A stretch of 64,000 nt of DNA from Ctena decussata (taxonomy: Eukaryota > Mollusca > Bivalvia > Lucinida > Lucinidae): the NCBI GenBank assembly GCA_963989385.1, contig OZ022515.1, positions 8,712,803-8,776,802 on the forward strand, read 5' to 3'. A model generated the notes under the pieces. It was not told the origin of the DNA. It did no database searches and saw only the letters and a list, made by a program, of their open reading frames with translations. Of this stretch, positions 397 through 38,685 are shown piece by piece; position 1 is the first letter of the stretch, and each line of letters starts with the position of its first letter. A program made the position numbers and the translations under genes.

Positions 397-399
397 TTT

Positions 400-412: not shown

Positions 413-430
413 ATTCTTTTGAGTTAAAAT

Positions 431-2647: not shown

Positions 2648-2661
2648 GAAAGGCTGCCCTT

Positions 2662-3087: not shown

Positions 3088-3117
3088 GAACGTGAAGATT
3101 CTGTCAAATGTGCAAGA

Positions 3118-6100: not shown

Positions 6101-6588
6101 TAAATAAAACCCACGAATTTGCATTCAAGAACCTTAACCAAGCTGCGAATTCGCAAAAGAAATACTATGATGTTGGCTTGAAAGTCAGAAAATACAAACA
6201 GAACGAGTTTGTATGGAGGTGGTATCCACCTTTAGCAGGTTTAAAGCTTGGTTTGGGTTGGACAGGTCCCTACAAAGTTATAGATAAACTGTCTAGTGTC
6301 ACATACATAATTCAAAGAGATCCAGCATCAAAAACATTAGTTTCTCACGTAGACCATCTAAAACCTTACCAAGGAGATGGCACACCTAGAAACTGGCAAG
6401 TATCAGACACAAATACTGAACAAGACACAGAACGTACAGATACAAAAGTGTCTGACACTATAGCTGACGATACTGACAACACAGAAACAGTAGTGTCTAA
6501 CACAATAAACGACGACACACATGCAGAAGCATATCGCACTAGATACGGTCGAAAAGTAGTTCCACCATTAACATACTGCCCTCTATGA
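3118..6588 (+). CDS. pol: Pol: reverse transcriptase, RNase H and integrase of Ty3/gypsy element
   Basis: The 1156-codon ORF has domains in the usual Ty3/gypsy order. RT has SPWSSPILLVTKKDG, FCIDYRRLN and the catalytic YLDD at residues 316-319. RNase H has DTDASLHGIG near residue 462, then TYRELLAVV and RSDHSSLKWL. Integrase has an HHCC zinc region (about residues 747-790, ending CDLCARRK) and a DDE core with Asp in IAIDILE near 815, Asp875 and Glu911 (D-x35-E exact). A GPY/F-type C-terminal module lies near 1050 (GWTGPYKVID). I see no chromodomain. All catalytic residues are present, so the domain set looks intact apart from the upstream stop. The N-terminus given is the GTG after that stop; natural translation would continue from the protease. 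Confidence 0.95.
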   Translation: MKLSKRAIVPPESEMVVKAYVKGQLISDGEVMLEPYKTLGIKGLLVSNSLVQPDNVLVSIINVTKKPIHVKQHSLVGSLTPVVSSEAFQSVSDEKTSMFTGLTEVPEHLQDLINGASDNLTNEQQESLKHLIVDYQDIFMSPDGKLGRTDLVKHTIDTGTSKPIKIPPRRVPQKQKQIIEQELDKMLQNDIIEPSTSPWSSPILLVTKKDGSIRFCIDYRRLNAVTIKDAYPLPRMDDSLDALSCSKWFSTIDLVSGYWQAEITVSDRPKTAFFSCHKGLFQFKVLPFGLSNAPAVFERLMELVLRGLNWEKCLCYLDDVIVFGKTFQEALENLKTVFQRFRDANLRLKPSKCALFKTEVSFLGHIVSEAGISCDPKKTDAVQTWPVPMNVSEVKSFLGLVGYYRRFIKDFSTLAFPLTELTHKAKRFIWTEACQVAFETLKSSLVSAPILAYTTENGSFILDTDASLHGIGAVLSQVQNGEERVIAYASRTLSKSQQRYCTTYRELLAVVTFIKLFRHYLWGRKFVVRSDHSSLKWLRNFKNPEGMIARWLSVLSTYDFSIEFRRGSFHTNADAMSRKTHKICKKPTCSDCVKLAKMSEKVPNVVPTQTDPLIIKKGVIMPIVDQVVSSAGHTISEDSDSQNCHSFDSSQFSWIQTWSHDQIKHWQELDADISRIVSLKNSHTSQPPREIIAGDSRNVKALWSLWDSLMVENGALRYIWHNAIDGSTSRLLVTPPEIRKVVFQKLHSDKVAGHFGRRRTVDAIRKRFFWPGMSSNIRLWVRQCDLCARRKPGPGKGKSPLQQSKSCYPLSRIAIDILECPQSTNGNLYIIVVCDYFTKWTEAYPVQDHTALTVADKLVTEFITRFGVPAVIHTDQGREFESIIFSRLCQVLQVMKTRTTPYRAQSDGLVERFNRTLLQMLSMYVNSNQSDWDDQLPFVLMAYRSTVHESTGCSPNLLMLNRECSFPIDIIAGNPPAHPQTSCPVQYLNWLTYTVNKTHEFAFKNLNQAANSQKKYYDVGLKVRKYKQNEFVWRWYPPLAGLKLGLGWTGPYKVIDKLSSVTYIIQRDPASKTLVSHVDHLKPYQGDGTPRNWQVSDTNTEQDTERTDTKVSDTIADDTDNTETVVSNTINDDTHAEAYRTRYGRKVVPPLTYCPL

Positions 6589-7780
6589 AATGTTTTGGTA
6601 ATTACAGCGCGTAACATGAGACTACATGTTTATCAATCTTCAGTGACCTAGAAGATTAAACCATTTTATGTGGCTGTTTTTAAAATTTTACATATATATT
6701 AAACACGAAATGTTTAATATATTGCTCATAATTGCTTCATTTGCTCGGAGTAATATGAATAAAGAACAGTAGAAGACCAAGATTGTGTTTCCAATATAGC
6801 CTAACAACATTTTTGTTCTCACTGTTTATAGCCAATTGATTTTGTTTTTCGTTCATTTCAAGTCATTTCAATTCATTCTCTCAAATAAAGTCACCCTCCT
6901 ACATATGAAATATCTGTGCATATCATAGTGCACTCTTCTTTATTACTTTAACTTTACCTAGAAGTATCAGACTTCTCATGTCTGACATTTGTTTCATTCC
7001 TACTAAATGATTCTATTATACTTTTCAACAATATATATTCATACATTCTTATATGGTAATGTTTTGTTTTTGTGACTAAGCTTCACTTGACAGTCAGCTA
7101 TCATTTGTCCATTATCTAAATATGGTTTGATGTTGTTTACAGCTGATGGTTCACTTGAAAACTTTGTCACTTAAACATATACTTGCTGAGTCTGTTATGA
7201 GAATCAGTCTAATCTGTTTAAAGTGTAAAATACAGATAGTCGGCATTAGCCGTTCCATTACTTAAATATGGATAAAGGTTGTGCATATGTCAGATGTTTC
7301 TGTATTTGTACTTAACATACCTCTTTGGATCATATTTAATTTACAGGTTGCAGGCTCTGATTGGTAAAGACAACATATGTTGACATTAGTAAAGTTATTT
7401 TCTTGAAGTTGAGATACATTATGTATGTCGTTAGACCGGTCTGTATCTGCAATTTGGAAGTTACCGTTTCACTTCAGTATTTTTTTTTAGAGATTCACAT
7501 ATTTTGGGTACCCTGTTTGTGTTAATGGGTAGTTGCACTTTGTGTCTGAATATGTGCTAGTTAAAATGTGTGAATTTCAACTTGTTAAATTTGATCCAAT
7601 CCCCCTATCAGTCAAACTTTTGTCCTTGAAGTCTGTAAACAGCATTGTATGATTTCGTATAATGTGCCCGTCACATATCTGAGTCAAAACCATGCTGCAG
7701 AAAGAATTCATAATGCTTATTTCTATATATTATTATCAGAAGTTTCATAGATATTTTGTCCGCCTCGTTTCAGATTCAGA
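6589..7780 (+). other. Non-coding internal spacer between pol and accessory ORF
   Basis: About 1.2 kb with no ORF I can support. It has AATAAA words at 6758 and 6884, which could terminate gag-pol RNA. The stretch gtccgcctcgtttcag at 7758-7773 is a good pyrimidine-rich 3' splice acceptor 7 nt before the accessory ATG. This suggests the accessory ORF is expressed from a spliced or subgenomic RNA. The splicing is inference. Confidence 0.5.
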
Positions 7781-8371
7781 ATGTCTTCCAGATCAAAAGA
7801 TCCGTTGGGTCTTGAACTTCAATTAAGTGTTGACGAGGATGACCTGGATTCCTTGGACAATGACTTACGTCCAATGTTCGTATCGGGTATGGCGTGTCAG
7901 GTATCAGCATGTTCCAATCATCCGTACTACAGCATTAATACGTTATGGAAACATTGGAAGAAAGTTCACAGGCCTTACATTCCTCTGTTCAAGTGCATGC
8001 ATCAAAAGTCGGACGGATTGTGTGGATTCACAGCGACCACTGTTGGTGTTGTGAGAAAACACTGTATAAATGCTCATAAACTAGAACCTTCGAAGTTCAA
8101 AATTATTAAAGACATGGTTCTAAATAAAAACTATGTGAATCCAAAAGAAGTAAAATGTCCTAAGAGACCGTCTTCTATCAACGAGGAAGGCAGACAAGCT
8201 GCAGCTGCAGAGCGCCACTCGAGACCTATCTTGGGTCAAATTCAGACTGGAGAAAATGTGAACAGAGACGAAACAGTAACGATCATCAAACATACAGTGT
8301 CAGGAAAAACTCAATTCAAACCTCACATTTATCAGAAACCACATTGGAAACCTAATCCCCACCGGAAGTGA
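7781..8371 (+). CDS. Accessory C2H2 zinc-finger ORF of Ty3/gypsy element
   Basis: This 196-codon ORF lies between pol and the polypurine tract, in sense orientation. The N-terminus is acidic (residues 17-30). Two C2H2-like fingers are visible: C39-x4-C44-x13-H58-x4-H63 and C72-x8-C81-x12-H94-x4-H99. The C-terminus is basic and rich in Pro, His and Lys (KPHWKPNPHRK). Non-canonical Cys spacing and the lack of a TGEKP linker set it apart from ordinary tandem ZNF proteins. The position is where env or other extra ORFs sit in some Metaviridae, but there is no signal peptide or membrane segment, so it is not an envelope. It may bind nucleic acid and could be a captured host gene or an element regulator; I do not recognise the family. 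A likely splice acceptor lies just upstream. Its intactness in a young element supports a real coding function. Confidence 0.72.
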   Translation: MSSRSKDPLGLELQLSVDEDDLDSLDNDLRPMFVSGMACQVSACSNHPYYSINTLWKHWKKVHRPYIPLFKCMHQKSDGLCGFTATTVGVVRKHCINAHKLEPSKFKIIKDMVLNKNYVNPKEVKCPKRPSSINEEGRQAAAAERHSRPILGQIQTGENVNRDETVTIIKHTVSGKTQFKPHIYQKPHWKPNPHRK

Positions 8372-8509
8372 ACAGTCATGATTTACATTTTGTAAATCTT
8401 ATTTTTTGTCTTCTTTAGTGGTATTATTGTTTGTTTTCTGCTTGCCTTCTTAAAGTCTTTTACAACCTTTTTTTTAAACAAATGTTGTGTCTACTTGCAA
8501 TATTTGTTT

Positions 8510-8521
8510 GGAAGGGGGGAG
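8510..8521 (+). promoter_or_regulatory. Polypurine tract of Ty3/gypsy element
   Basis: GGAAGGGGGGAG abuts the TGTAAG start of the 3' LTR. In this element class the tract is the RNase H-resistant primer for plus-strand DNA synthesis. It fixes the LTR start at 8522. Confidence 0.9.
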
Positions 8522-9583
8522 TGTAAGGGATACATATACTAGGCAAGCAGAATTCTCGGTTGGAGGAGAATTGTCACATAAACGGTTTATTAGGTGTTGT
8601 AATAGTCTCCCTTGAGCTGAATTGAACAGAAAATTATGTCTGGAAAGTGCTATATATTGTGCAGTCTGCAGGTTCGAAAGCCGTTCTTTAATCAGCAATA
8701 TAATCTGTCTGAATTATGTATTTTCTCAGGTGCTTTCAGTTTGTGTTGTTAGTGTAATTTAGTTTCAACGGCTGAGAATTGGAAATATGCTAATGAAGAT
8801 GGCATTTGTCTATAATATCTGTTTGCTACTTAGTATAATTTATAAGCCACAGTCAAGTGTGACTGTATATTCTGATACAACTAATACGATTTTCAATAGG
8901 TACCAAGTTTTACCTAAGAAGTCGTTTTTGGGACACAAGTACCATGTTTTGCTTGATCTCAAATATCTAAAATCTAAACTTGGCTAAGTTTCCTGACCCC
9001 CTAACTCTGGTGTTGGGCTGTAAAATATGCACATTTAATCTAAGATAAATTTGCTAAATATTGTTAGGCTGTAGAGGAAACATAATCTGAAATCATGCCA
9101 TTTTTTTCATTAATGTAAATAAAATCATTCAATACAAATTACTTTTTCTTTCATATTCTCAAACAAGCTCAAAAGAAGAACCCGTAGGGAGAAGGTTTGC
9201 TCTTGTTCGTCTGTCCGACTGTCTGTCCTCGACTGGGACTGGTCGTCCGTCTGTCTGTCCTTATCCGAGTCTGTTCGTCTGTCTGTCCGTAGGACAGTAT
9301 TTTTTCGTTCATCCGTACAACACTAGTGTCCGTGTGTAGTGATTAACAGGGCTAATTGACCTGCCCGGGTGTGCTGATTGGGGCTGAACGGACAAATACT
9401 TATGCGAATAAACTTGTGTGCAAAGTATAAGAAAACCAACATGATAGAACAAGTAGTGTAATATACTATTTCAGGACAATTTAACACTTAAGTTGAGTAA
9501 CAACAGTTAAAGTGTAAGAGCTCATTCCCTTCATATTATTAAGGGACTCATTCCCTTACAATTAGGGATCTAGTCCCGTTACA
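8522..9583 (+). repeat. 3' LTR (complete, 1062 bp) of Ty3/gypsy element
   Basis: Starts TGTAAGGGA and ends CCCGTTACA, giving short inverted TGTAA/TTACA ends. It begins at the polypurine tract and ends where similarity to 1-396 stops. It contains GTCTGTCC-type short repeats at about 9208-9292 and AATAAA at 9407-9412. Small ORFs inside look accidental. With the 5' copy it defines an element of about 10.2 kb. Confidence 0.95.
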
Positions 9584-10079: not shown

Positions 10080-10975
10080 CATGCCTACCAATCGCTCGCA
10101 TGCGAAACTACGCTTCAGAACGTCAATCCATGAGAAGAGTTTCCAGTTTGGCAGAAGGTGAGCCAAAATCGTAAACAAATTTGACATCGGCACAAAATTT
10201 GAGGTATTAAGTTTCTCTGAAAAATGTTTATGCTGAATATAAGAATGCTATTTTGTCAAATATAGATTGTTTCTTCGGCACATGAAAGGGTTAGGCACAT
10301 GGTCCTGCATTTTCCAGATATGCATTTAGTACGGCGGAGCATGTGTTCAATGTCAATCCCGATAAAATATATATGTATGGAAAAGTCGCATTATCTTGCT
10401 TGATTTTGAGTCTCTGATCTTGTCAGTCGCAAAGAAGTGATCAGAACAGAACTACTGTATGCGTGAACCCAAACGTTTAAAGTAAGCTTTTTGCTTTGGA
10501 CAGTTTAGTTTGTAGAACATATACGCAAACACTTGGCATCGTCAGTCCGGTTCCGCATGAGATATTAGAAAAAAAATATAAGGACTTTTGGACTCACATT
10601 TAAGTAGTTCTGTTCACTTCTCTGCGACTGACAAAGTCAGAGACTCAAAATCAAGCTAGGGAATGCGACTTTTCCCTACATGTATATATCGCCGAGACTG
10701 ACCTTGAACACATGCTCCGCCGTACTAAATGCATATCTGGAAAAATGCAAGACCATGTGCCTTATCCTTTCATGTGCCAAAGAAACAATCTATATGTGAC
10801 AAATTAGCAATCTTATATTTTGCATACATAGTTTTCAGAGAAAATAAATAACTCAAACCTTGTGCCGATGACAAATTTGTTTACAATTTTGGCTCACCTT
10901 CTGCAAAACCAGAGATTCCTCTCATGGATTGGCGTTCTGAAGCGTGGTTTCGCATGCGAGCGATTGGTAGGCGTG
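10080..10975. mobile_element. Foldback-type element with ~375-bp inverted arms
   Basis: The left arm (10080-10456) is repeated in inverted form at 10604-10975. Outer ends read catgcctaccaatcgctcgc and, inverted, gcgagcgattggtaggcgtg; inner ends meet around cagaacagaactact / agtagttctg. About 147 bp of unique sequence lie between. Arms are diverged by scattered substitutions and small indels. No transposase ORF is visible. It is probably a non-autonomous foldback or long-TIR DNA transposon; superfamily and target duplication are not resolved. Confidence 0.8.
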
Positions 10976-20202: not shown

Positions 20203-20274
20203 GAACATTCTGGAAAATTGGGGAATTTTTAGAATGTTCCCGAAACAGAAAGAATTGTCTGGAAAGTTCTGGAA
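20203..20274 (+). promoter_or_regulatory. Distal heat-shock-element clusters in LTR
   Basis: In-register alternating GAA/TTC units (5-bp spacing), the binding form of trimeric heat shock factor: 20203-20215 (GAA-TTC-GAA), 20232-20244 (GAA-TTC-GAA) and 20252-20274 (five units, one with a mismatch). They lie upstream of the TATA box of the same LTR. Confidence 0.75.
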
Positions 20275-20304
20275 TTCGCTCCCCATTGTCAAAAGAATGT
20301 TGTG

Positions 20305-20357
20305 GAAGCTTCAGGAAACTTTGAGAATTTTCAAGATGTTTCGAGAATTTTCTAGAA
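20305..20357 (+). promoter_or_regulatory. Continuous 11-unit heat-shock element
   Basis: Eleven consecutive alternating GAA/TTC units, each exactly 5 bp apart: GAA, TTC, GAA, TTT, GAA, TTC, GAT, TTC, GAA, TTC, GAA. Nine units are perfect and two have one mismatch. Three units suffice for a functional site, so this is unusually long. The inverted LTR at 39442-39489 keeps ten of the units. Confidence 0.8.
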
Positions 20358-20474
20358 TATCTAATTTTAGTGATGTAGAAAATAATAGAAATTTCTGTTG
20401 TAAACATTAAGAATCTTTTGGTATAAAATTATGTCGGAATTGAGAACTGTCTAGTAAAATCTATCACTGGTTAA

Positions 20475-20505
20475 TTCCTGAATGTTCCTAGATAATATAT
20501 AAAGG
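20475..20505 (+). promoter_or_regulatory. Proximal HSE and TATA box of LTR promoter
   Basis: TTC-ct-GAA-tg-TTC at 20475-20487 ends 8 bp before TATATAAAGG (20496-20505). An initiator-like TTAGTC lies about 25 bp downstream. The arrangement resembles animal hsp promoters. In the inverted copy the HSE is kept (39312-39324) but the TATA reads TATATTAAGG. Confidence 0.75.
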
Positions 20506-20863
20506 CCACCAATTTTCCTTTAGTCATCTTTGTAAACACTTTCGCCAGTCTATAGTTAAATAAGTTATACTGGAATTTAAATATATTGGATTACTTTGTG
20601 ACTTTCATTCTGGGATTATTTAAAAATATTCTGCTGACTTTAATATTTGGGATCAGAAACTGTGAAAGGACTTGTGTTTTTAACAGATATTTTGATTGAC
20701 ATTTAGGATAATTTATGGTATCGTAAATTACATATTTTCTTGATTGATTAATGACTGTTTTAATTTTGATATACATGTAAATAAATTTTGTTAAGTTTTA
20801 AGACAGGCTTGTTGCTTGTTTACTTCCATCTTTTTCTGTTACCTCCGCCAGGTCGTAACAAAT

Positions 20864-20881
20864 TGGGGGCTCGTCCGGGAT
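20864..20881 (+). promoter_or_regulatory. Primer-binding site, tRNA-Pro, 18/18 match
   Basis: TGGGGGCTCGTCCGGGAT, 3 nt after the LTR end, is identical to the classical tRNA-Pro primer site of gammaretroviruses. It marks the 5' boundary of an internal region only about 67 bp long before the next polypurine tract. Confidence 0.9.
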
Positions 20882-20936
20882 AGGACATTATAAGCCGAAA
20901 TGGCTTTCAGTCATCATAAAAAAAGATGACTTCCTT

Positions 20937-20948
20937 GAAGTGGGGGAG
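20937..20948 (+). promoter_or_regulatory. Polypurine tract of the miniature internal region
   Basis: GAAGTGGGGGAG abuts TGTTACGGG, the start of the next LTR. With the primer site at 20864 it encloses a very short internal region (leader plus PPT only), a TRIM-like or internally deleted layout. The mirrored copy is at 38853-38864. Confidence 0.8.
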
Positions 20949-21176
20949 TGTTACGGGCCAACTCTCCTACCTTCCATAATCTACTACAATAGTAGATTTG
21001 CGCATTGCTTCGTTATATTCAATCTCTGACAACTGCGTCAGGGAGTTAACTCTTTGGCTCAGTGGTTAGAGCATTGGGCTATCACCCGGGAGGTCCGGGT
21101 TCGAATCCCAGCAAACGACTGGAATTTTTTCAGCTATGCGCTTTGGTCCGTTTGTTGCGGCAGCAATGTCGTAAGA
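20949..21176 (+). repeat. Short LTR (228 bp) containing tRNA-like segment
   Basis: Runs from TGTTACGGG to GTCGTAAGA and is followed at once by a primer-site sequence (21177-21196) and the Gmr1-like gag, so it acts as the 5' LTR of that element. It shares its first ~170 bp with the 5' part of the inverted LTR at 39490-39661 but has a different 3' end. Inverted copy: 38626-38852. The terminal CGTAAGA departs from the expected ...CA end by one base. Confidence 0.75.
21048..21119 (+). ncRNA. tRNA-like segment with Pol III A and B boxes inside LTR
   Basis: A box TGGCTCAGTGG at 21055-21065 and B box GGTTCGAATCC at 21098-21108, at tRNA spacing. D stem (GCTC/GAGC), anticodon arm (loop CTATCAC, anticodon ATC) and T arm can be drawn. 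The acceptor ends do not pair, so it is a tRNA-derived relic and not a working tRNA gene. The inverted copies have a GTC anticodon position, pointing to tRNA-Asp ancestry. It could give Pol III transcription within the LTR. Confidence 0.7.
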
Positions 21177-21196
21177 TGGGGGCTCGAGTCCGGGAT
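21177..21196 (+). promoter_or_regulatory. Primer-binding site of Gmr1-like element (2-nt insertion)
   Basis: TGGGGGCTCGAGTCCGGGAT is the tRNA-Pro site with two extra bases (AG) in the middle. It lies directly after the short LTR and 100 bp before gag. The insertion would weaken primer pairing and fits a decayed copy. Confidence 0.75.
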
Positions 21197-21295: not shown

Positions 21296-22640
21296 ATGTC
21301 TTTTTATCTTGATAAATTCATTGCTGCGCCTTCTCAGGAGCTGCTGAACTTGGCGAAAAAGACAGATTTACTGGATATTGCAGCACATGATGAATTAACC
21401 TCAGTCAAAAGGTCCATGTTGAAACATGAAATTAAGAATATTTTGATTCAGTTCTTTGTTGATGAGGAAAATTTTTATTCCTCTGCAACCTCTCACATTC
21501 TCGTCACTCAAACCGATTTGCAGATGCGAGAATTAGATATTCAGAGACAAACTGAAATGGAAAAAATAAGATTGAAACATGAAGAAAGAATTAGGCTTGA
21601 AAATAATGAGCGTGAGGAAAGAATTAGGCTTGAACATGCTGAGCGTGAGGAAAGAATTAGGCTTGAATCATTAGAAAAAGAGAAATTGAGGTTAGAAATG
21701 GAAGAACGAGAAAAAGAAAAATGACAGAGAAATGCAAAAAGAGAAATTAGAGAAAGAAGAAAAAGAAAGAGAAAGACAATTTCAAATTAGAATGAAAGAA
21801 ATGGAAATGCAAGAAAAGACCGCATCAAAATCTTTGCCTTTGGATTTTAAAAAAATGTTTTTGACGTTACCAAACACATCAGACTCGTTCCTCCATTTCA
21901 AGAAAAAGAGGTTGACAAATATTTTCTTCACTTTGAAAAAGTTGCAGAAAATTCAAAATGGCCAAAAGAGCATTGGGCTTTGCTTCTACAGAGCGGTGTG
22001 ATCGGCTAGGCTCGCGAAATTTATACACAATTTTCTCTTGAGCAGGGCTCAGATTATGACAAAGTAAAAGAACTTATTTTTAAGGCTTTTGAGTTGGTCC
22101 CTGGGGCTTACAGGCAGAAATTTAGGAACTGTAGAAAAGAAAATGACCAAACTTATGTTGAATTTGCTAGGACAAATGAGCAATTATTTGATAGGTGGAG
22201 CTCATCAAAGAAAGTGGGCTCTGACCATAGTAAACTAAGACAGCTCATGCTTGTTGCAGAATTGAAAAGGTGCATTAATTCTGATATTAAATCATTTCTA
22301 GACGAAAAGCAGGTCTAAACTTTAGAGGCAGCAGCTCGTTTGGCTGATGATTATGCTTTAACTCATAAGACATCTTTTGTGCACAAGCCTTTTCCTAAAA
22401 AGACATTTTCCCCTCAGTCGGGTCCCAAATTCAGTCCCAGTAATCCATCTGGCAATTCCAGTCCCACATATACTCAAAAACCAACCCCCCCCCCCCCCCC
22501 CCCGCCCCCAGTGAAAACAAAGGTCAAAATCCCTTATCTCAGCCTATTTGTAATTATTGTAAGCAATCAGGACATATAATTTCTGAATGTTTACTTTTAA
22601 AGAGGAAGAGAGAAAAACAAGAGGGTCTAAAACCCACAGG
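21296..22640 (+). pseudogene. gag: Gag of Gmr1-like element, SCAN-like capsid region, broken
   Basis: The coding starts at the ATG at 21296 (MSFYLDKFI...). A long charged coiled coil with repeated EERIRLE units occupies 21530-21790. A SCAN-like capsid C-terminal region lies at about 22050-22320, including YRQKFRNCRKE and DRWSSSKK. A CCHC zinc knuckle (NYCKQSGH...C) lies at 22549-22590. It is broken by a stop at 21722-21724, frame changes around 21725-22000, stops near 22007 and 22316, and a frameshift at the C homopolymer (22487-22507). The SCAN domain of vertebrate zinc-finger proteins is known to derive from a Gmr1-like gag, so this match fits the pol domain order seen downstream. It is non-functional as it stands. 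Confidence 0.85.
22487..22507. repeat. C homopolymer tract in gag
   Basis: About 17-20 Cs broken by one G. The reading frame changes here: the zinc-knuckle frame downstream differs from the upstream gag frame. It may be a real frameshift or an assembly error. Confidence 0.85.
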
Positions 22641-22725
22641 TCTTACCTCTTTACGGTCAACACCACAGTCTTGTGTTCAGGATCAAATTCCTATTCGGAC
22701 CAAAATTTCTGAGACTGATTCTGTT

Positions 22726-23232
22726 ATGGAGATTTATGAACCATTCTTATCAAAAGGTTTTGTGTCACTAAATAGTGACTTTGCCCAGTCTACCCCTATT
22801 ATTATCTTACGAGATACTGGAGCTTCTCAATTCCTTATTTTGGCAGATACCCTGCCATTTTCCGAGAAGACTTCTTCTGGGACAAGTGTCCTTATTCAGG
22901 GAGTAGAATGTGGATTTGTTAATGTACCGCTTCATAACATTTATTTGTCCTCAGACTTAATTTCTGGTCCAGTGGCTGTTGGTATTAGACCTTCATTGCC
23001 TTTTAAAGGTGTTCACTTATTGTTAGGCAATGACCTAGCAGGAGATAAGGTTGTGGTTAATCCACTTTTGACCAACACACCTTGTGTTGATCAACCACCT
23101 GACCCCATTGAGCAGGAAATTCCTGACCTTTACCCTTCGTGTGCTGTCACTAGGGCTATGGCCAAGAAAGCCATGTTGAATGATGGGAATCAGGACATTG
23201 ATTTAACTGATACTTTTATAGGTAGTCTTTGA
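22726..23232 (+). pseudogene. pro: Retropepsin-like protease region of Gmr1-like element
   Basis: The open frame has the aspartic-protease motif LRDTGASQFLI (Asp in DTG) and the downstream LLLGNDLAG motif. It follows the gag zinc knuckle and precedes the integrase. It would cut the Gag-Pol polyprotein. The ORF ends with TGA overlapping the ATG of the next frame (ATGA at 23229-23232), i.e. a -1 shift, which could be programmed or a mutation. The region is otherwise intact over 168 codons, but the element as a whole is dead. Confidence 0.8.
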
Positions 23233-23755
23233 ATGACGAGATTTCAAAATCTCTTTCATCCAGCCTGTCTGACATGCAGACAGACTCTACTTCCAACTCA
23301 TCAGTGTCCAACACGGACCACTCTCCTTCATTTTCAAATGACCAAGGTCATGACCTACTGTCAAGGTCACAGCTTTGCAAAGAACAACACAGTGATCCTG
23401 AGATCTCACCTTTGTTTGAAAGGGTTTTAGATGAAAACGAAATGTCCCAGGTTCCTGTTTGCTATTATGTCAAAAATGACATTTTGATGAGAAAATGGCG
23501 TCCTCCTGATGTCTCAGCAGAAGACAAGTGGACTGTTAACCACCAAATTGTGGTTCCAAGGGTTTTTCGCCCTGAAATTTTGAACTTGGCCCATAAAACT
23601 CCCTTGTCAGGTCATTTATGGGGTAAACAAGACCTACCACAAGATTCTAACCATGTTTACTGGCCAGGGTTAAAGTCCGATGTTTCTTAACATTGCAAAT
23701 CTTGCCATACATGTCAAATGGTAGGAAAACGTGATCAAACTATCCCTAAGGCCCA
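23229..23755 (+). pseudogene. int: Integrase N-terminal part of Gmr1-like element (interrupted)
   Basis: A Ser-rich linker is followed by the HHCC zinc-binding region: AHKTPLSGH at about 23590-23620, VYWPGLKSD at 23655, and C..C (CKSCHTC) after a TAA at about 23688-23690 that breaks the frame. The frame then continues to codons for Lys-Ala-His at 23748-23755, where the CACAG... insertion begins. The integrase resumes in the same frame at 37149 (LQPIPAFEEP). Integrase BEFORE RT is the diagnostic Gmr1 order. Confidence 0.88.
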
Positions 23756-24378
23756 CACAGGGCAAACGTGCATCTATAAGCCCCTATAAGTCTGCGTAAA
23801 TGTGCATTAAATGTGGCGTAAAATTATAAATAAGCAGCGTGAAACTGCTGAAGAAGTAGTTTTAAGTCGCATTTAAGCAGGTGTGTAAACAACTTTGTGA
23901 CATACCTTTTTAGTGACTTTAAGCACCTGCTTAAAAGTCTTTAAATCGGAACAATAAGCGGTCAAAAACGCAGCTTATCACTGCTTAATATTTCCTCTTT
24001 TAAGCATTTTTAAGGACTTAAAAGCTTAAGAAGAACCATCTGTAAGCACCTTTAAGTTAGTAATAATTGAAGCGTATATGATAGTAATTGTATTGTTGCT
24101 TATATTTTTTATATATATATATTTTTTTTTTGGTAATTTTAAGTCATTGTTTATAATATCTTATAAACAACATACGACTTGAAATCGCTAGCTTTATAAC
24201 TTGAATTCCCCCTTCTTTCTTTTTTTTCTTTCCACTGTTTAGCAGATGTCAAATCAGGAGTAAGTTCCTAGAACTTGAAGACATTTCATGGGTGTACATA
24301 CTATTCATTTCTATCAACAACAAAAAACAGCAACAAGTAATTTTATTTTAATACTTCAGCTCCAGTTGTCAACATTAA

Positions 24379-24818
24379 AGTCTCCATAGTCCTATCAGCG
24401 GTAAAAACTCCTAAACGCATATCATTGTAAAAAGCGGTTCAACCTTCACGTTTGGTAATAAAATGTGGGTTGGTGTGATATATTGAGTCATGTAACTGGC
24501 TAAAAGTAGAGAAAACAAGTTTTTTGAAAAATAACAAATCGCTCTACAAAGTACAATTTCCCGTTCTGGTTTCCCGTCTAGCAATGCTTTATAAACATAG
24601 GCGGAATATTGACTGGTATGAAATCGAAAGTAGGTCATTTTAGTTGCCAACTAAAATGACCTAAATAAGTTTTCAATCCCTTTTTATGTGAAACTCAGGG
24701 ATGTTTAACTTTTTTAAAGCTGGCTAATCACGGTCATATACAGTTACGAAACTATTTTGAGAAGCTTGCCTCGATTCCTTATGATAAATTTTTTCATGCT
24801 GATAGAGCAATGGGGCCT
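24379..24818 (+). mobile_element. piggyBac-like TTAA MITE, copy 1 (440 bp)
   Basis: Flanked by TTAA on both sides (24375-24378 and 24819-24822). Termini are AGTCTCCATAGTCCTATCAG and, inverted, AGGCCCCATTGCTCTATCAG. It has an internal palindrome (ggtcattttagttgccaact / agttggcaactaaaatgacc) near 24632-24660. Two more copies are at 29413 (inverted) and 56899. There is no coding capacity. Confidence 0.82.
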
Positions 24819-25162
24819 TTAAATATGACAACTTTATGTAATGTCCGGTCACTGTCACTGTCAACGTCTGTCGTAAGAAACTTTTGAACACTCATTGTAT
24901 AACTTGTGTCCGCGCTCAGTACATCCTCTATCTCTCGTTGTAAGCGTAGAAATGATCGGACAGTCAGTTTTCCCGCCGTATTTGAGAGATAATGCAGTCT
25001 GCTATTTACCTCACTACACATGGATATTTGCATAATTTATACAACATCTGTAAGATATTTACTAAGGTGGCATATCGTAAATTGCAGATTAGCATATAAT
25101 CTCATTGATGTACATGTAAAATATTTATTATGAGGCCAAGGTAAGTTATAGAGGAAAATGGC

Positions 25163-25164
<2 letters not shown>

Positions 25165-25200
<36 letters not shown>
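25165..25200. repeat. (GA)n microsatellite
   Basis: About 18 GA units; a shorter GA run is at 25785-25800. Confidence 0.95.
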
Positions 25201-25205
<5 letters not shown>

Positions 25206-26051
25206 TGTGTATGACCACGCATATAACTATAATCCACTACTCCGTATTTAAAATTATCATATAACGAATTCATTCATCCATTTGAGGTTTTCAACTATTT
25301 CTGACAAAGCTATGGAATAAAAGCTAACACTCAAGTACACGTTTTTTTTTTCAAATATGAATGCTGAAAACCGTTTAAAGGGTCTTTTAAAATGTTGCGG
25401 CTTTCTTGCCCCTTCCTTCCTCCCCTCTCACAACCACCACACACACGTCTGAAATGAAGAATGAAAAGTCCTTTGTCCTCCTAAAAACAAATGTAAATTC
25501 ACCTTTTTCAGTAAAGCCCTGGAAGGATCTCTCATGTTAAGTTCATGGAAATAAGGGTCAAAACTTATGTAATTTGCAAATTTGAACTGTGCTTGGGTTT
25601 GACTTTGGTTTGATAGACCAGCATGGAAGGAATAACTTTAAACGTTTTTATTATTATTTTTGTTTCAAAATTATTTTTTTACATCAGCTGTAGGAGGCTT
25701 AGGCTGTGCCATGCAAAGATATGGGCAGTAACAAATTAATGTGTATACATCATTTACATACATTATTAAAATATTACAGCTAAAGAGAGAGAGAGAGAGA
25801 AGTTTGTGTTAAGATATATTCACGAATTTAAAATTGGCCATTTTCATAAAGATTATTTAAATCAGTCAAATGACATGTTAATTATATGTTCGTGAAAAAA
25901 AAGACGTTAGCGAAATTTCTTTTAGTAATTATACGACTGGTGGTGGTAGCTACATGTAGTTTATGTTGTTACAGTACAGTGGCCGAGTGCACAAAGCAGA
26001 CGTAAGATTACGCTGGACGTACGACCGTCGTAAAGTTGTCGCAGAAATTTA

Positions 26052-26474
26052 GGGCGCGTTTACACGAGCAAAGTTTCTATGTCACAGAAACTTTAACAAA
26101 GAAAGTATGACAAACATTTTGCGTTTACACGGAGCAAATTATTTGTTAAAGAAAATGTGCCATAGAATCTTTTTCACATAAACTTTGGCAATGAAATATT
26201 TGCTGCAGTGTTCACACGACCAAATATTATTCGTCAAAGTTACCTGCAGCGATGAAACAAAATCTTTGTCACATTTTCCACGCTTGTAGCAATGTTCTTT
26301 GTTACATAATCTTTAGCAAAGTTCTCCGTTTACACGAACAAATTTAAGGTATCGAAGTAACTTTACCATATATTTTTGTCAAAGAAACATTGTCATATTT
26401 TGGCATTCACACGAGCAAATTTTTCTGTGACAAACCTACTTTGTCATAGAAACTTTGGTCGTGTAAACGCGCCC
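26052..26474. mobile_element. TA-flanked MITE (423 bp)
   Basis: Ends are GGGCGCGTTTACACGAGCAA and, inverted, GGGCGCGTTTACACGACCAA; the matching region continues as AGTTTCTATG. TA flanks at 26050-26051 and 26475-26476. Several caaa(g/t)tt..ttaca-type internal repeats. Non-coding, inserted into the Harbinger left subterminal region, and one of the youngest layers here. Confidence 0.8.
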
Positions 26475-26603
26475 TAAATCCGTGTGCACAACCAAGGCGT
26501 GTCGCAAACTTAGTCGTAAAATCGCTCTAATACTCACGTCTGCTTTATAGTAGACTTAACACTGGCGTAAGGCACTCATATTTCGTTAGTGTTTCATTTA
26601 AAC

Positions 26604-26764
26604 ATGGCCGGAATGTTACATTGGATGCACGACTTAAATTATAGAAGGGTTTTAAAGAGAGACAGGATAATCAGAAACAGAACAAGTCCTTTGGATACAT
26701 ATAATGATGTAGATCTATATAAACGGTTTCGTTTGCCACACCATAGGCTGCTTGAACAATGGTG
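26604..26764 (+). pseudogene. PIF/Harbinger DDE transposase N-terminal fragment
   Basis: A short frame from an ATG at 26604 to a TGA at about 26762-26764 reads MAGMLHWMHDLNYRRVLKRD and on to the motif LDTYNDVDLYKRFRLP. It resembles the N-terminal helical region of HARBI1-type transposases (RDR..PL..Y.D..L..RFR). The catalytic DDE domain is absent. Assigned from motif recognition and context (Harbinger termini, Myb partner gene). Confidence 0.6.
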
Positions 26765-27154
26765 ATGACTGGCATAATATGTCAAGTACCAAAAAGTTCC
26801 TTTTGGTGGCTTTGGACCACCCCTTGTATGAGGATACTTTCTGTTGGAGTAGTCCATCTGTAGTCGGGAAAGCAGGTCTTTCCATTTATGCTTGATCTCT
26901 TCCAGAGTCCACTGTTGCTTCCCAGTTGCATTTACTGCGGACTATATTTCTTCCCATTTTTTTTTCATTCTTGACGTGAACACATTAGAAAATTTGGAAT
27001 TAAGGATCTCAGAATTGTCCTTATACATCGCCAACAATTTCAATATGTCATTATCTTCAGTATTTTTTTCTGATAGACAATTTACGTTTAGCTCAAAAGC
27101 ACATGCACGTTTGAAAGTGTTATAATGAACATTAGTTTTAAAGAAAATCACCAA
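26690..27154 (-). pseudogene. Myb/SANT-like protein of Harbinger element, broken
   Basis: On the minus strand from 27154 the frame runs through ...NSEILNSKFSNVF, KKKWEEI, a stop at about 26940, then residues typical of the trihelix (VNATGKQQWTLEEI, HKWKDL) and GGPKPPKG near 26800. This is the Myb/SANT-like DNA-binding partner that PIF/Harbinger elements encode beside their transposase; it helps nuclear import and end binding in studied members. In-frame stops show it is dead. It converges on the transposase fragment. Confidence 0.65.
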
Positions 27155-27908
27155 AAGATTAAAATATGTCGTGCAGATTTATGATAAATATATAACATGC
27201 AAAAAGGTACATATGCCATATGCGAACATCAGAGGCTCATACCAGCCTGCGCACCCACGCAGTCTGAAAATTATGCATGGAACCTGAGAATTTTACATGT
27301 ACAAAGAGAAGTATCTATCTAAAATCACGGACTCACAGGCTGGTTTCAGTCTTCTCTGTTCGAAGATGCCTTAAGCAACTTTTATGCCTAACGCGCCTCA
27401 TATCATATCAGAAAACCATTCAGCAAACACACTGCTACTTTTATTTGAGAGCACTACGCTAGTCGTACTCTAGTCGCAACTACGCCTGACTTACGCCTGC
27501 TTCGTGCATTTGGATGTTAACACAGTCGCAAGATTGACTTACTTGCGCCGACGTTCGTAGCCTACGCCGGCGTAGCTTACTCCTCCTTTGTGCACTCGGC
27601 CCCAGACTCGACAGTATCGGATCACCGACACTATCGGATTATCGACAGTATCGGATCACTCATAAGTTATCGCCTGTTTTTCTTACAAATGAAGCAAATA
27701 TTTTCACCATTATATCACAGTAATACAAAGCGCACGGTGAAAAATTCGATTAAAATGTGCGGCTGTGAAACAAATCAGAGTTGTTGAAAAGCTTGGTCCC
27801 TCTTCAGCGGCGCTTGCATTTTGGCTGTTGCTTTTTAGCCCCAAAAAGATTTCGGTTATTTGAACTATTTTATCATTAGGCAATTGAAACCAATTCTGCT
27901 TTGTTATA

Positions 27909-28146
27909 TGAGCCACGATACGACAAAACCAACAATGTGGTTGTGCGCCTAGTGCAGACTCAGATCAGCCTGGGCATTCGCCCAGTTTGACCAGACTCTT
28001 CATTAAGTGTTCAAAGAGTAGCTAAGGGTCTTAGCTACCTCCATGCAGACAGCGAAGACTCTGATCAGACTGGGCGGATGCCAAGGCTGATCTGAGTCTG
28101 CGCTGGGCGCACAACCACATTGTTGGTTTTGTCGTGTCGCGGCTCA
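27909..28146. mobile_element. GAGCCGCGACACGA-type foldback MITE, copy in 13.4-kb insert
   Basis: Ends TGAGCCACGATACGACAAAA and, inverted, TGAGCCGCGACACGACAAAA, extending to about 60-bp inverted repeats (…CCAACAATGTGGTTGTGCGC…). 238 bp, the same length as the copy at 46741. The middle holds agactctgatcagactgggcgg. Flanked by AT-rich sequence; the target duplication is ambiguous (TAT/AT). Non-coding. Confidence 0.8.
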
Positions 28147-29412
28147 TATGTCCTGGTATCCGTAAAATTGCAGACAGTCGTTATTTTAGTGAAATCCCAG
28201 TATTTGATGAGACTAAAGACTTGAAAATTGGGACACCGATGTGCGACAGTAACGGATCATTTTATAATTTGAACTGAAATACAGGCATAAGCTGGAAAAC
28301 TTTTTGTTGGATGCATGGTCAGATGCTGAAAGCAAATCATAAATCAGCTACACGAGTGGCTGGTGTGTCTACTTTCAGAGAAGATTAGTATAAGAATAAC
28401 ACGACATCCTTTTCGTAAGATGTTTCCCATTCCACGTCCCACACACTAACGTATGGTATGACAGGCTATGCGTAGCACAATGTAACTTCTGCTTAACATT
28501 CTGAAGAAATATTTGAGATCGTCTCACATGTGTATGTACCAATAATTACTAGCGATCATCAGATTGACATTTGTACATTGTGTAGACTCAGATTAATGTC
28601 GCAGAACTCATTGCATGACCATGCAGCGTTTATTCTCTGTTTACATTGAAATATCAAGGTTAAGGCGGAAAATCACCCTAAATTTGTTGATCCTGATCAG
28701 TCACTACGGTCTTATCAGGGTCTACACTTTGCATAGGCAGATTATGGTCTTGACTGTTTTAGTACTAGTTCCATGTTATAGGGGCGCAGAGGACTACTGC
28801 GTTAGGATTTATAGACGGGCTTGTACATTTGATTACATTCAACTGTAATTTGACAGCCATAACATTTGCTCGTGAAGGACCTTGTAAAATATCGTTGTAA
28901 GGCCGTATAAAGTTTCTCTGAGACTTTAGTAGGTCCAACGGTTAATGTAGCCAAATTAATGAAGCTAAGATGTTTGGCAGAACGCATCGCAGGAGCTCTC
29001 TTATAGAATAATATCATATAATCCGATACTGTCGCACCTGATTCGTTACTGTCGTAAGACCCTTTGTAACTCTAGATAGGTTATCTGCCCTTTAGTGGAC
29101 AAATTTCATAAATATTTTGACATGGACAGATAGAAGGGATATTTTGCAATTGCTATGTCTCATAGCATATATAATTTTAGCATTCACATACAACAAAACA
29201 GGATTTTTATTAATCTTGATCCGATACTGTCGAGTCCACTGTATAATGAATTCAAGTAATACCAACTTGGCACGGTCAGCCACAGAGCGACCGTATGCAT
29301 GTAGCGAAGGGAACCGCACCGTTAGAAGAAACTGCAAAGCTTTGCTAGTATTCTGCTGCATGTAAGCCGAAATAACATAGCTCCAACATTTTAATTTTCA
29401 GTTGTCTTTTTC

Positions 29413-29737
29413 AGACCCCATTGCTCTATCAGCATGAAAAACTTTATCATGAGGTATCGCTGCGAGCTACTAACTATAGTTTCGTCAGTGTACATGACCG
29501 TTACAAGCAAGCTTTAAACAAATAAAACATCCTTGGGTTTCACATAAAAAGGGTCTGATAACTTACAAATGACCTACTTTCGATTTCATTAAGTAGAATA
29601 AAATGGTAAAAATACAATGTACAGGCATGGAACCCCGATCACTATCCAGTTTATATTTATATAGCATTGCTATACGGGAAACCAGAACAGGAAATTGTAG
29701 TTAGTCGTTTTTTACCAACGATCGGACTATAGAGACT
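29413..29737 (-). mobile_element. piggyBac-like TTAA MITE, copy 2 (inverted, 325 bp)
   Basis: Inverted relative to copies at 24379 and 56899, with an internal deletion. TTAA is kept at 29738-29741; the other side is TTTC. Ends read agaccccattgctctatcag and, at right, ggactatagagact. Confidence 0.75.
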
Positions 29738-30229
29738 TTAATGATCAGGGTAGACATTGTTCTGCATTCCACAAATCGTGTGATTCTATAGCAGGGCAGT
29801 GAGAGGTGACTGCTATGTTGTACTGAATAGAGTTACCTTCGAATATAGCCACTCCGTTAGGAGGAAGCCTACATGTAGAGCTCGTACAAACAGAGCTATC
29901 ATGCTGATGAATAGCTGTATTCGGAACATGATCGGTTTTCTGTCGAAAAGACCTACCCAGGACTTGGTGATCCAAGATTACCGAGACAGCAAAGATTCAG
30001 TATTATATATTACATGTTGGATGGTATTTTCGGGTTGTACACTTCACTGAATCATTTCCGATGGACGGACGGACAGACACACGGACAGTCAACGGGAATA
30101 CATAATACTCCGCCGTTTACCCCGCCACTGACGTGTGGCAGGGTATAAAATGCATATCAGGGACTCATTCTAATATCATATATCAACGAACGAAGTTTCA
30201 TTGGTTTGATTGGCCGGTTGTTTTTGGTT
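29738..30229. other. Unannotated stretch inside the 13.4-kb insert
   Basis: No gene seen. Contains acggacggacagacacacggacagtca near 30065 and other short repeats. Confidence 0.35.
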
Positions 30230-30465
30230 TAACGGCTCTTTGAGACAGTACTGCAGGGTATTTCGAGCCGCCTCCCAGAGAGAGGGAGAAAGAAAAGAAA
30301 TACGATGGGGAAAGAGAAAAAATGTTCAAACAACCCCGCCCCGCACCCGGCCACCTTCACCTACTGCAAGCACAGTAGGCTCTTGCCCTTCTATCATCTA
30401 AATTAGTAGGACGCCCCGGCACTGAAAGTTATTCAGCACCATCGCCCGACCACGACAACCCCCAC
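30230..30465 (-). repeat. SINE-like interspersed repeat, copy 2 (inverted)
   Basis: Reverse-complement homologue of 14118-14345, including gtcgggcgatggtgct, cggggcgtcc, the gcaag..tact..cttgcagtag block, a CT-rich block and tgtctcaaagagccgttaaac. A third fragment is at about 13525-13575. Non-coding. Confidence 0.6.
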
Positions 30466-31764
30466 TAAGTTTCATACGCAAAGTTTTAAAAGTTGTCGTA
30501 GCGTATGTATGGGTTTTCACCTCTGTTGCTATAGTAAATAAGAATTTTGGCTGGCTGTAAAAATGTCAGAAAAATAAAAAGAGTGTGGACCCTAATCTAA
30601 GACAAATATTTGCAGCTTTGATCAGATTGATCAGAGTTAAAAACATTTATATTTTCCACCATAAGAACTGATGTTTGAATGCATCAAAGGTGGACACTGG
30701 TCATACAGCGCATTCTGTTGCGTCAAATGTGAGTTAACATCGTTTACCAAGGTAACACCGGGTTGGTAAACATTTCTATCACTGACTCAAAGATTGGAAG
30801 ACGCTAAAGACTGCGGATTCGCTGATTTTTTTTATCAGTTCAATTTGAAACTCTGTAAAAGCAACATTATAACATCATCTATGGACATCTGTACACTGAA
30901 GTAATTGAAGACTGAGCAAAGTGCCTAATCAGCATTCGCATGATAAGTAGGTTGATCTGGGTCTATGCTGCTTGCAAATGTTTTATAGTCTAACTCCTCA
31001 GTTGTTCGTAATCTGTCTTGAAACATGACTGGTAAGAAAAAGACAGTATCAAACTTTTAGTGTTGTGATGGCAGATACGGCGGATACAGGCCCTTTCACC
31101 TAAGAAACTTTATGAAAGATACATCTAATAAAACATAAAGTCGTTTAATCAGTTGTTTTTCTCTTCAAAACATGCAAACTATACATAACCGAGTGGCCCT
31201 GCTCTTAGTCATTCGACATACTAATTGAACACAAATGCAATCGGTATGGTTTCGAATCAGCCCCTGTACATGTATATTAATTAGACGAAGGGAATGATAG
31301 GACACCTACCGTGCTGATTTTATACAGCTCAGCGACGAAGGTGAGTGGGTAAATACGTACACGCATTTTCTTGCTGAGACTTATATATATACACAAAATG
31401 AAGCAAACTATAAGATGTATTGTGTACAATTTTACCATCAGTATCATGCTTCGAAAATGAAATGCTCAACAATCAGTGCATGTACCAAATTGAATGTGAT
31501 CTCTTTACAAACATCAAAGCAATAACAGCGCTTCTCATTCACGCACACACATTCGGTTGAATACCGCACACTACACCCTCGGGGATGGGGACTTTGGGTG
31601 TGTGTGTGGGGGGGGGGGGGGGGGGGGGGGGAGTGGGGAGTAACTTCCTATACATGTTACATGTATAATTCGGATATGCGGCCCGAATAGCCTTTCTCTT
31701 TTTTTGTATTTGATTTAGCCCTATCTTTTTAACAACAGGTCTATGTCCGACCCTCTTTTTGCCG
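30466..31764. other. Gene-free stretch; G tract at 31605-31631
   Basis: AT-rich sequence without genes. It contains a (TG)n/G homopolymer near 31596-31631 (27 Gs or so). Confidence 0.5.
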
Positions 31765-32034
31765 GGCCGGGTAGCGCAATCGGTAGGGCACCTGACTCGT
31801 AAGTCAGAGGTCCTGGGTTCGAATCCCGGTCTGGCCACATACTTTCGTTTCTCCTTCCGCTGATTCAAGAAGGGCAGTTGTCAGTTACTGGCGAAAGTAT
31901 GTGCGCTTAGTACTGGTTAACCGCTTAGGAGGTCTAAGCCTGCCCAGGAATAGTGTGGTTAGGTTAACTGACCGTCCCGACATGACCTTAGTTGTTTACC
32001 GTGGACGTTAAGCATCAAATCAACCAACCGACCC
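31765..32034 (+). mobile_element. tRNA-derived SINE, full-length copy
   Basis: The head at 31765-31837 folds as a tRNA: acceptor GGCCGGG/TCTGGCC, A box TAGCGCAATCGG, B box GGTTCGAATCC, CGT at the anticodon position. The anticodon loop is 1 nt short or strained, so it is a SINE head and not a clean tRNA-Thr gene. A tRNA-unrelated body follows: cagttactggcgaaagtatg, cttagtactggttaaccgct, gcctgcccaggaatagtgtg, and tgtttaccgtggacgttaagc, then a CAA-rich tail. A second copy is at 32590. Confidence 0.82.
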
Positions 32035-32589
32035 TCTTTTATTCTTTGCACGGTACCCATTGCGTCCATACTTACATAAACATCCGAAAAAATTACATTC
32101 ATTTCTTAAATCAATGACCTCTTCTTAACACAGCTTTCTAGTAGATTAAACTGTCGAAAAATGATTCTAAAATAAATTCACGTGTTCATTTTATTGGATC
32201 CATTTATTTTCCTTTGTACGTTTTCAAATTTTTTTGTCAGACTGAGTTTTAAGAAAATAAAATTATTCTCTATCAAGAAATGTCATAGTAAACTACTGAG
32301 AATCTCATTCAGAGTATATGAAGATACGAAAACTCGAAGGGCAGAATATGAATAGGTCGGTATTTTATGAAGTTGGGTCCTAGTTTTCAGCGCCAAAGTA
32401 TATGAAGGGGATGGTTTTGAAAATACCAGGCCACACATTCGTACCAGTATGACCTCGAAACCCCCCCCACCCCCCACCCCCGCTCCACCGCGAGACTACA
32501 AAAATAATGAACACTAGATATAATAAAGTGTTAACCTTTTACCAACAGAGACTCCGGTCAGTTTGCCCATCTAAAAACTAAAAAAACAG

Positions 32590-32820
32590 AGGTTCCGGGT
32601 TCGATATTCGGTCCGGCCACTCACTTTCGTGGAGACTGGTTCTTCTCCTTATGCTGCTTCAAGAAGGGTAGTTGTCAGTTACTGGCAAAAGTATGTGCAC
32701 TTAGTACTGGTTTACCGCTTCGGAGGTCGAAGCCTGCCCAGGAATAGTGTGGTTAGATTAACTGACCGTTCCATGACCAAAGCTGTTTACCGTGGACGTA
32801 AAGCAACAACAACAACAAAG
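32590..32820 (+). mobile_element. tRNA-derived SINE, 5'-truncated second copy
   Basis: Starts inside the B box (ggttccgggttcgatattcg) and follows the body of the 31765 copy closely, ending in (CAA)n. Same orientation, 0.8 kb apart. ORF 32629-32853 is an accident of the SINE body. Confidence 0.8.
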
Positions 32821-32986
32821 CCTTTCCAAAAGTCTGGTCAGCGGTTTCATTGATTTGCTTCGTCTGAAAACGAGCCATCTTGGCATGTGCTAACAGTATT
32901 AATCCGAATCAGCCTTGTCAGCCTGGTCAGACTCTTTCCTGACTTTCCTATTTGCATGAACACTGAACAGTCTAAGCGATGACGTA

Positions 32987-33306
32987 CACTGTAAAAAGAA
33001 TCCATAGAGTTTACGGTAGATAACTGGCAACCAACTGCCAGTCCGTTTCCCGTTATTTTCACAGGCGTTTGCCTGTAAGACATTGTTGGAAATCACGAAA
33101 TGGAAGCGTTATGTTAACTGGCCGCACTCGAAAATAGCTTTATATTGTTGGAGGGCTATCTGACCGAAACGACACATGTTCTATTCTGTCCTACTCTGCT
33201 TGATGATTCCTGCAATTTTTACGGGCGCCCGTAAAAATAACGGGAAAAGGACTGACAACTGGTTGCCAGTTATTCTACCGTAAAATCTACAGATTTTTTT
33301 ACAGTG
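32987..33306. mobile_element. Tc1/mariner-type MITE (320 bp)
   Basis: TA on both sides (32985-32986, 33307-33308). Inverted ends begin CACTGTAAAAA; arms of about 80 bp share acggtaga.taactggcaacca and cccgttatttt. Non-coding. Confidence 0.8.
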
Positions 33307-33474
33307 TAGACTGGATTGAACTCTGCATTTTTTTATGCAACAGCGATCAATAGTGCGAATTACGCCTACGTGTACGTGCCACTTTTTGACTCGCCTGTGA
33401 AAGATATGAAATACATAATTGCTTTACACATGCATAGAAATGGAAAAAATCAGTAACTTAAGGCTCGGTGGGAG

Positions 33475-33850
33475 TAATTCAGCGCCGCCGTGCAGCAGTT
33501 TCTGTCGCTACGTTACGTAACGATGTCAAACGTTCCGTTTGAGAAACACAAGATTGCATCAACGTTAGCCGCTTCTTTGAGTAGTCCACTGCATGGTTAG
33601 TTTACAAAATTGCGGCCGAGTTCCGGGTGACATTTTAAGAAAGTAGAAAGCTCCACTGAGAAGAAGCTGAAAATTTCATACGGCAAAAAAAGCGTTGTAA
33701 AATTTAATCCAGAACCGTACACTTCGTCCACATAATTTTGTCCGAAACTTTGAGTTAATACGGTAGCAGTCAAAGAAAGTGCCATTATACCACCCACACA
33801 GCAAAAGTAATGCCACATCTCAGTTATATTAAAAGTTCTTAGCGTTTTAA
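33475..33850. repeat. Interspersed repeat shared with 60.96-61.40 kb
   Basis: Shared blocks in order: gctacgttacgtaa.gatgtcaa.cgttccgtt, gcatcaacg..agccgcttt, cactgcatggtta, and gtccgaaactttgagttaa..tggtag.cag. Diverged; class unknown. The minus-strand ORF here is not supported. Confidence 0.6.
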
Positions 33851-34092
33851 CAACACCAGGCGGTCGAAGCCTCTTGCGGACAAAGCAATGTCGTCAGGAC
33901 GTTGCATCGACATTGATACGATAATACAACGATCTGTTCTGATTGTAAAATGTGCTTAACTAATGAGGCGTTTCTCTATTTCTGCCTTTTTACACGTTTC
34001 CTTCTTTCTTTATTATTTTTATATCAAAGAGTCGTTTCACTGAATTTCCTAGACACATAAGTGAATCTAAACTGTCTATGATTTCACAGAAT

Positions 34093-34119
34093 GAGAGAGA
34101 AAGAGAGAGAGAGAGAGAG
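34093..34119. repeat. (GA)n microsatellite
   Basis: GA/AG run, slightly imperfect. Confidence 0.9.
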
Positions 34120-34185
34120 TCGCCGAAGTTCAGTTGTTGGAACGCTAGGTTATAGTGCAGAATGATAGATTCTTTCTTGGGTCAG

Positions 34186-38618: not shown

Positions 38619-38685
38619 GCCCCCATCAAACGACATTGCTGCCGCAACGAACGGACCAAAGCATAGCTGAAAAAATTCCAGACTT

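Follow-up and report, generated by a model that had tools for sequence, protein, structure and literature searches.

HSF trimers bind at least three alternating nGAAn units, and the HSF arrangement is one of alternating inverted units with 2-bp spacers and many repeats. The terminal repeats of DIRS-1 of Dictyostelium, a tyrosine-recombinase element with inverted repeats, reportedly hold a heat-shock promoter. Among the closest described systems are plant LTRs. As given in the available portions of one study, predicted 3-unit sites in the LTRs of Brassicaceae Copia elements go with up to hundred-fold heat induction and 4-unit nGAAn sites with up to thousand-fold induction; the ONSEN LTR has four clustered nGAAn units and that of TERESTRA from A. 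lyrata has six (PMC5059998). Part of a second study describes binding of HSFA2 to the ONSEN LTR and names Drosophila copia as an example of a heat-driven LTR, one that would need at least three further nGAAn copies to be bound with high affinity (PMC3907296). Finally, Caenorhabditis Helitrons contain dense clusters of heat-shock sites (HSEs). According to the accessible part of the source, HSF-1 binds these clusters, and they are enriched in the vicinity of genes induced by heat (PMC6927752).

We analysed a window of 64,000 nucleotides from the bivalve Ctena decussata (contig OZ022515.1), in which an earlier note, made from the letters alone, had described positions 20203-20505 as a retroelement LTR built like a heat-shock promoter. 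We found that GAA and TTC alternate every 5 bp in 20203-20487, in four stretches that are each in register and in which 24 of the 30 slots are perfect (unit count). The features of this region are as follows.

20203 to 20225, strand not applicable: HSE stretch 1, five slots, four perfect
20232 to 20274, strand not applicable: HSE stretch 2, nine slots, seven perfect
20295 to 20357, strand not applicable: HSE stretch 3, the main array, 13 slots, ten perfect, including the 11-unit run of the earlier note
20475 to 20487, strand not applicable: TATA-proximal HSE, three of three slots perfect
20496 to 20505, plus strand: TATATAAAGG, a likely TATA box, 8 bp after the last HSE site

The count bears out the earlier figure of at least 22 perfect GAA/TTC trinucleotides. 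The claimed 11-unit run (20305-20357) is indeed in register, but only nine of its units are perfect, the other two having one mismatch each (TTT at 20320, GAT at 20335). Two further slots precede this run in the main array, from 20295, one of them imperfect, and the longest unbroken perfect run is four units (20340-20357). Similarly, the strict 5-bp register holds inside each of the four stretches, but no register is common to all four. The 3-unit site does lie 8 bp from TATATAAAGG, which starts at 20496, and AATAAA is present further down, at 20780; a second TATAWAW match within the HSE-bearing LTR lies at 20422. Runs of at least three perfect units occur six times within 285 bp of this LTR, and, as in ONSEN, the sequence upstream of the LTR TATA box includes an HSE in which three or more units are contiguous. 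With HSEs that precede a TATA box within an LTR, the layout agrees with the proposed build and is of the type expected for an HSF-driven promoter. The CpG content of 20203-20505 (4 in 303 bp; observed/expected 0.59 versus 0.74 across the window) was not telling.

The locus thus resembles ONSEN/ATCOPIA78 and TERESTRA in having nGAAn arrays in an LTR promoter. Those elements, however, are plant Copia elements with fewer units and demonstrated induction, whereas the present one is of Ty3/gypsy type, has 24 perfect units of 30 and is known here from its sequence. It likewise belongs to a different superfamily from Drosophila copia. The Caenorhabditis Helitrons are similarly mobile and rich in dense HSEs, but they are DNA transposons and their HSEs are not in LTR promoters. 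DIRS-1, likened here by description, is reported to share a heat-shock promoter in its terminal repeats but is of the tyrosine-recombinase type. A search limited to the open-access literature found no report of an HSE-bearing LTR retrotransposon in a mollusc.

The earlier note had proposed that the array be compared with shuffled sequence and with other LTR families, and on both counts the array stood out. When 20203-20505 was shuffled 1000 times with its dinucleotides preserved, no shuffle attained any of four measures; for example, 19 units were observed in perfect runs of at least three, against a shuffle mean of 0.067. The best segment score was 28.5, whereas shuffling the whole window 20 times gave no score above 9. 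A 3-Mb null sequence from a 4th-order Markov model contained 49 runs of at least three units, never two within 285 bp, whereas the LTR has six. Outside the HSE-bearing LTR and an inverted copy of it described below, the window contains one such run, at 57809. No run of at least three was present in the second LTR family of the window (1-396 and 9188-9583), and none was found in the short LTR at 20949-21176. The second family belongs to another Ty3/gypsy element (1-9583), apparently recent, with long gag and pol ORFs and terminal repeats that are 99.7% identical over 396 bp. The window also holds large foldback repeats at 10080-10975 (80.5% over 918 columns) and 52918-53152 (87.7% over 235 columns).

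We consider it reasonably probable that this region is the promoter part of the LTR of a Gmr1-like Ty3/gypsy element, or of a short relative that such an element moves, and that it is stress-inducible and HSF-bound in the manner of ONSEN. Because the promoter holds a dense array of heat-shock sites, heat, or another stress that damages proteins, probably activates the element. Under such stress, host HSF trimers would bind several LTR sites at once and, once bound, would bring RNA polymerase II to the TATA box at 20496, so that element RNA would start about 30 bp downstream of it. The element would then multiply while the host heat-shock response is on. With six HSF sites near the TATA box, a strong HSF response may be expected wherever host HSF is active.

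The alternative that we rate highest concerns the germ line. HSF is active in the oocytes and germ cells of animals, and the title of one study reportedly speaks of a maternal Hsf1 effect. The array could therefore serve chiefly to drive expression without heat in the gonad, the egg or the embryo, heat induction being secondary. This reading draws on the same array and the same null evidence, and it would suit an element whose insertions have to occur in germ-line cells. The present evidence does not distinguish it from induction by stress. We regard it as unlikely.

We next consider the LTR itself. The claim that the region is an LTR holds in that an LTR end, a primer-binding site and a polypurine tract can all be read downstream, but 20203-20505 is the upstream part of the LTR only. 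The downstream features are these.

20780 to 20785, plus strand: AATAAA, a possible polyadenylation signal
20854 to 20860, plus strand: CGTAACA, 3' end of the HSE-bearing LTR, an inverted match to the LTR start TGTTACG
20864 to 20881, plus strand: primer-binding site of 18 nt, read from the letters, which we take to be of the tRNA-Pro type
20940 to 20948, plus strand: polypurine tract GTGGGGGAG, directly before the LTR start TGTTACG
20949 to 21176, plus strand: short LTR 'A', 228 bp, which starts TGTTACG and contains a tRNA-like unit
21055 to 21111, plus strand: tRNA-like unit, Pol III promoter-type (Rfam tRNA, 30.2 bits, gathering cut-off 29)
21177 to 21196, plus strand: second, altered primer-binding-site-like sequence before gag

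The signals of an LTR are present as TG...CA ends (TGTTACG/CGTAACA), the 18-nt primer-binding site and the tract GTGGGGGAG; in the inverted copy, where the 5' LTR occupies 39661-38940, they form a single unit. Since the polypurine tract and a new LTR start follow so closely after the end of the HSE-bearing LTR, the internal part is just 88 bp. A TGTTATG at 20104, with one mismatch to the LTR start, was set aside as the true 5' end, there being no second copy by which to test it. The idea that the short LTR is a deletion derivative of the HSE LTR was also set aside: beyond their common head, the two share only chance-level matches.

A short internal part and a tRNA-like LTR recall two groups of elements that occur in bivalves. 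Helenus elements are tRNA-bearing TRIMs known from pteriomorph bivalves, some of them primed by tRNA-Pro (PMC10886601), and biv-TRIM has repeats of 202-218 bp and an internal part of 77-80 bp (PMC6934838); the available portions of these two reports make no mention of HSEs. Compared by description, the present locus shares with both a tRNA-like LTR start, a primer site matching a tRNA 3' end, a polypurine tract and a short internal part (here 87-88 bp), but differs in that its tRNA-type head also adjoins an HSE LTR body and gag-pol. The tRNA-like sequence in the LTR, a feature of Helenus, was recognized by Rfam (21055-21111) and through box B, GGTTCGANTCC, which occurs at 21098, 39511 and 38702. 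The strict 12-nt box A was not matched in the tRNA-like units, ARAGORN called no tRNA at any of them, and an Rfam tRNA search of the inverted copy gave none at E 1. The tRNA-type head simply fits a bivalve host.

The inverted copy has the following parts.

38940 to 39661, minus strand: LTR of 722 bp, tRNA-type head joined to HSE body
39489 to 39442 and 39324 to 39312, minus strand: array slots
38919 to 38936, minus strand: primer-binding site
38853 to 38861, minus strand: polypurine tract
38626 to 38852, minus strand: LTR of the short 'A' type, 227 bp

On the minus strand, 39490-38617 is 96.1% identical to 20309-21185 over 878 columns. The LTR of this copy starts with TGTTACG at 39661, and its head is 95.2% identical to that of the short LTR over 168 columns. 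The HSE body of the copy begins within the main array, at the base that corresponds to 20309, so that the upstream stretches (20203-20308) are missing, but it retains ten of the 13 main-array slots, unchanged, together with the proximal site. Across 20309-20948, 17 of 640 columns differ between the two copies. None of these differences falls in the proximal site, and none in the shared 49-bp array; as about 1.3 would be expected in the latter, their absence is not significant and gives no proof of constraint. The proximal TATA box of the inverted copy has one base change (at 20501) and no longer fits TATAWAW.

The two LTRs that flank the 87-88-bp internal part of the inverted copy, in which both the primer site and the polypurine tract are found, are alike for 173 bp (97.7%) and then diverge, which indicates a mosaic structure rather than a clean insertion. 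At neither copy did we find matching LTRs around one internal part with a target-site duplication: none was found by eye, and the element ends gave no clean pair on both sides for the 4-bp duplication of animal Helenus elements. The same tRNA-type head, of about 168 bp, is seen on two LTR bodies (20949-21176, and minus-strand 39661-39494 and 38852-38626). Its presence on both a short tail and the HSE body may possibly mean that Helenus-type elements and a Gmr1-like helper have exchanged sequence. At 38600-38640, pol runs directly into the inverted LTR copy, head-to-head, a junction that could have arisen by self-integration, template switching or misassembly.

This arrangement also allows a more elaborate version of our reading, in which one LTR (39661-38940) would have two switches, a Helenus-type Pol III head and an HSF-dependent Pol II promoter. 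A Pol III mini-retrotransposon and a Gmr1-like helper would swap LTR parts, and heat would start the helper's promoter. We put this forward as speculative and rather doubtful; if it is true, the array would exceed in length every HSE array so far described in an LTR.

We then return to the preferred reading, that of a stress-inducible promoter, and to the ways in which its array might mean less than it seems to. The array could be a by-product of 10-bp slippage or duplication, with no regulatory role. Its autocorrelation does peak at 10 bp (0.493) and 20 bp (0.478), and the G+C content of the stretch is low (0.31). Furthermore, three IMG/VR viral contigs (L001-L003) each contain eight perfect GAA/TTC units in register; in the two for which ORFs were listed, the arrays lie inside long ORFs (L002:4004-4041 and L003:1103-1140), and at the array the letters of L001 are identical to those of L003. 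The pattern can therefore arise without HSF. As candidate relatives of the LTR these viral arrays were judged unrelated, and a search with LTR patterns gave 0 matches in both viral contigs and genome contigs. Arrays of this kind make a useful negative control for HSE scans. Against slippage, we found that the unit columns of the main array, taken at the 10-bp period, are mostly fixed (2.0, 2.0 and 1.41 bits for GAA; 2.0, 2.0 and 0.75 bits for TTC) while the spacer columns mostly vary (0.62, 0.16, 0.42 and 1.08 bits). The exception is the last base of TTC (0.75 bits), which is less conserved than one spacer column (1.08 bits). Because spacer bases mostly vary and unit bases are mostly fixed, the array is not a clean tandem repeat, and a separate, perfect 3-unit site stands outside it, 8 bp from the TATA box. 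We judge an origin by slippage alone to be quite improbable.

The array might instead once have been functional in a family that is now extinct, leaving relics without present effect. The evidence on this point comes largely from the neighbouring gag-pol.

21296 to 23232, plus strand: broken gag, with a weak SCAN match at 22010-22315 and a zinc knuckle and protease DTGA motif found by eye
23487 to 23756, plus strand: integrase N-terminal zinc domain, first part of the split pol
37147 to 38619, plus strand: integrase core and C-terminal domain, then the start of the reverse transcriptase, ending at the inverted copy

The SCAN match (E 1e-4) was below the cut-off, and Pfam gave nothing for 22444-23229. 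The two pol pieces represent a single gene split by 13,390 bp, since a relative, P0016, aligns to 23487-23756 and 37147-38619 as one protein. The insertion (23757-37146), which splits the integrase gene, also carries further repeats. Its ends share 13 bp, GCATCTATAAGCC, in inverted orientation close to each border, an arrangement resembling that of a DNA transposon. Within 37120-38619 the domain order is rve, p58_C and then RVT_1. The relatives P0016 and P0006 are also integrase-first, with RNase H last in P0006. In the Gmr1 clade, the integrase lies upstream of the reverse transcriptase, as described in part of one report (PMC6238403). By this domain order, on which the likeness rests, the adjacent gag-pol is of the Gmr1-like, Ty3/gypsy type. 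The integrase/reverse transcriptase piece matched 1397 proteins at E 0.001, mostly unnamed and up to 84% identical among the 120 listed; in viral contigs, five stretches matched the search pattern for such relatives and none was confirmed.

The gag-pol has several ORF breaks and is cut within the reverse transcriptase where the inverted copy starts. Together with the 13,390-bp split and the 17 of 640 columns that differ between the two copies, this damage is what an extinct family would leave. Because the adjacent gag-pol is split and truncated, the 20203 locus itself is very unlikely to move, and both copies in the window are damaged and probably no longer mobile. The array itself, however, is little damaged, and appears intact enough for a putative heat-responsive promoter or enhancer action in place. 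The many related proteins also speak against extinction, as does evidence of a further LTR copy. In a database of 5.8 billion proteins, the minus-strand ORF of the LTR had a sole match, P0121 (E 3.4e-30), a predicted antisense ORF of 66 amino acids on one ENA contig of 3493 bp; the plus-strand ORF gave no candidate there. P0121 is identical at 58 of 65 amino acids and colinear with window positions 20213-20407, so other copies of the LTR exist. Its seven changes include none in the units of the main array, two in the main-array spacers and two in other in-register units (20233 and 20395), a comparison at the protein level, to which silent changes are invisible. As two of seven changes in units is about what chance predicts (54 of 195 nt), P0121 shows no general constraint, and because the match ends at 20213 it does not show the first HSE site. 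At the protein level, and through a predicted ORF only, the third copy nevertheless keeps the long array. We therefore assign extinction of the family a low probability, as we do slippage. The idea that the array is used by some other factor whose site contains GAA is almost certainly wrong: trinucleotide motifs are short, but alternating inverted units with 2-bp spacers are the HSF arrangement, and among triplet/reverse-complement pairs at spacings of 4-9 in 20203-20860 only GAA/TTC at 5 exceeded three units (19), with nothing similar at other triplets or spacings.

Stress-woken LTRs are well shown in plants, while HSF units are few in the animal case cited above, that of Drosophila copia. 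McClintock's proposal that transposons are released by stress would find a strong test in an animal LTR of the gypsy type that carries 24 perfect units. The HSE-bearing LTR would offer ready-made heat control to genes nearby and, in a marine bivalve host, would bear on animals that face heat waves with large, variable genomes.
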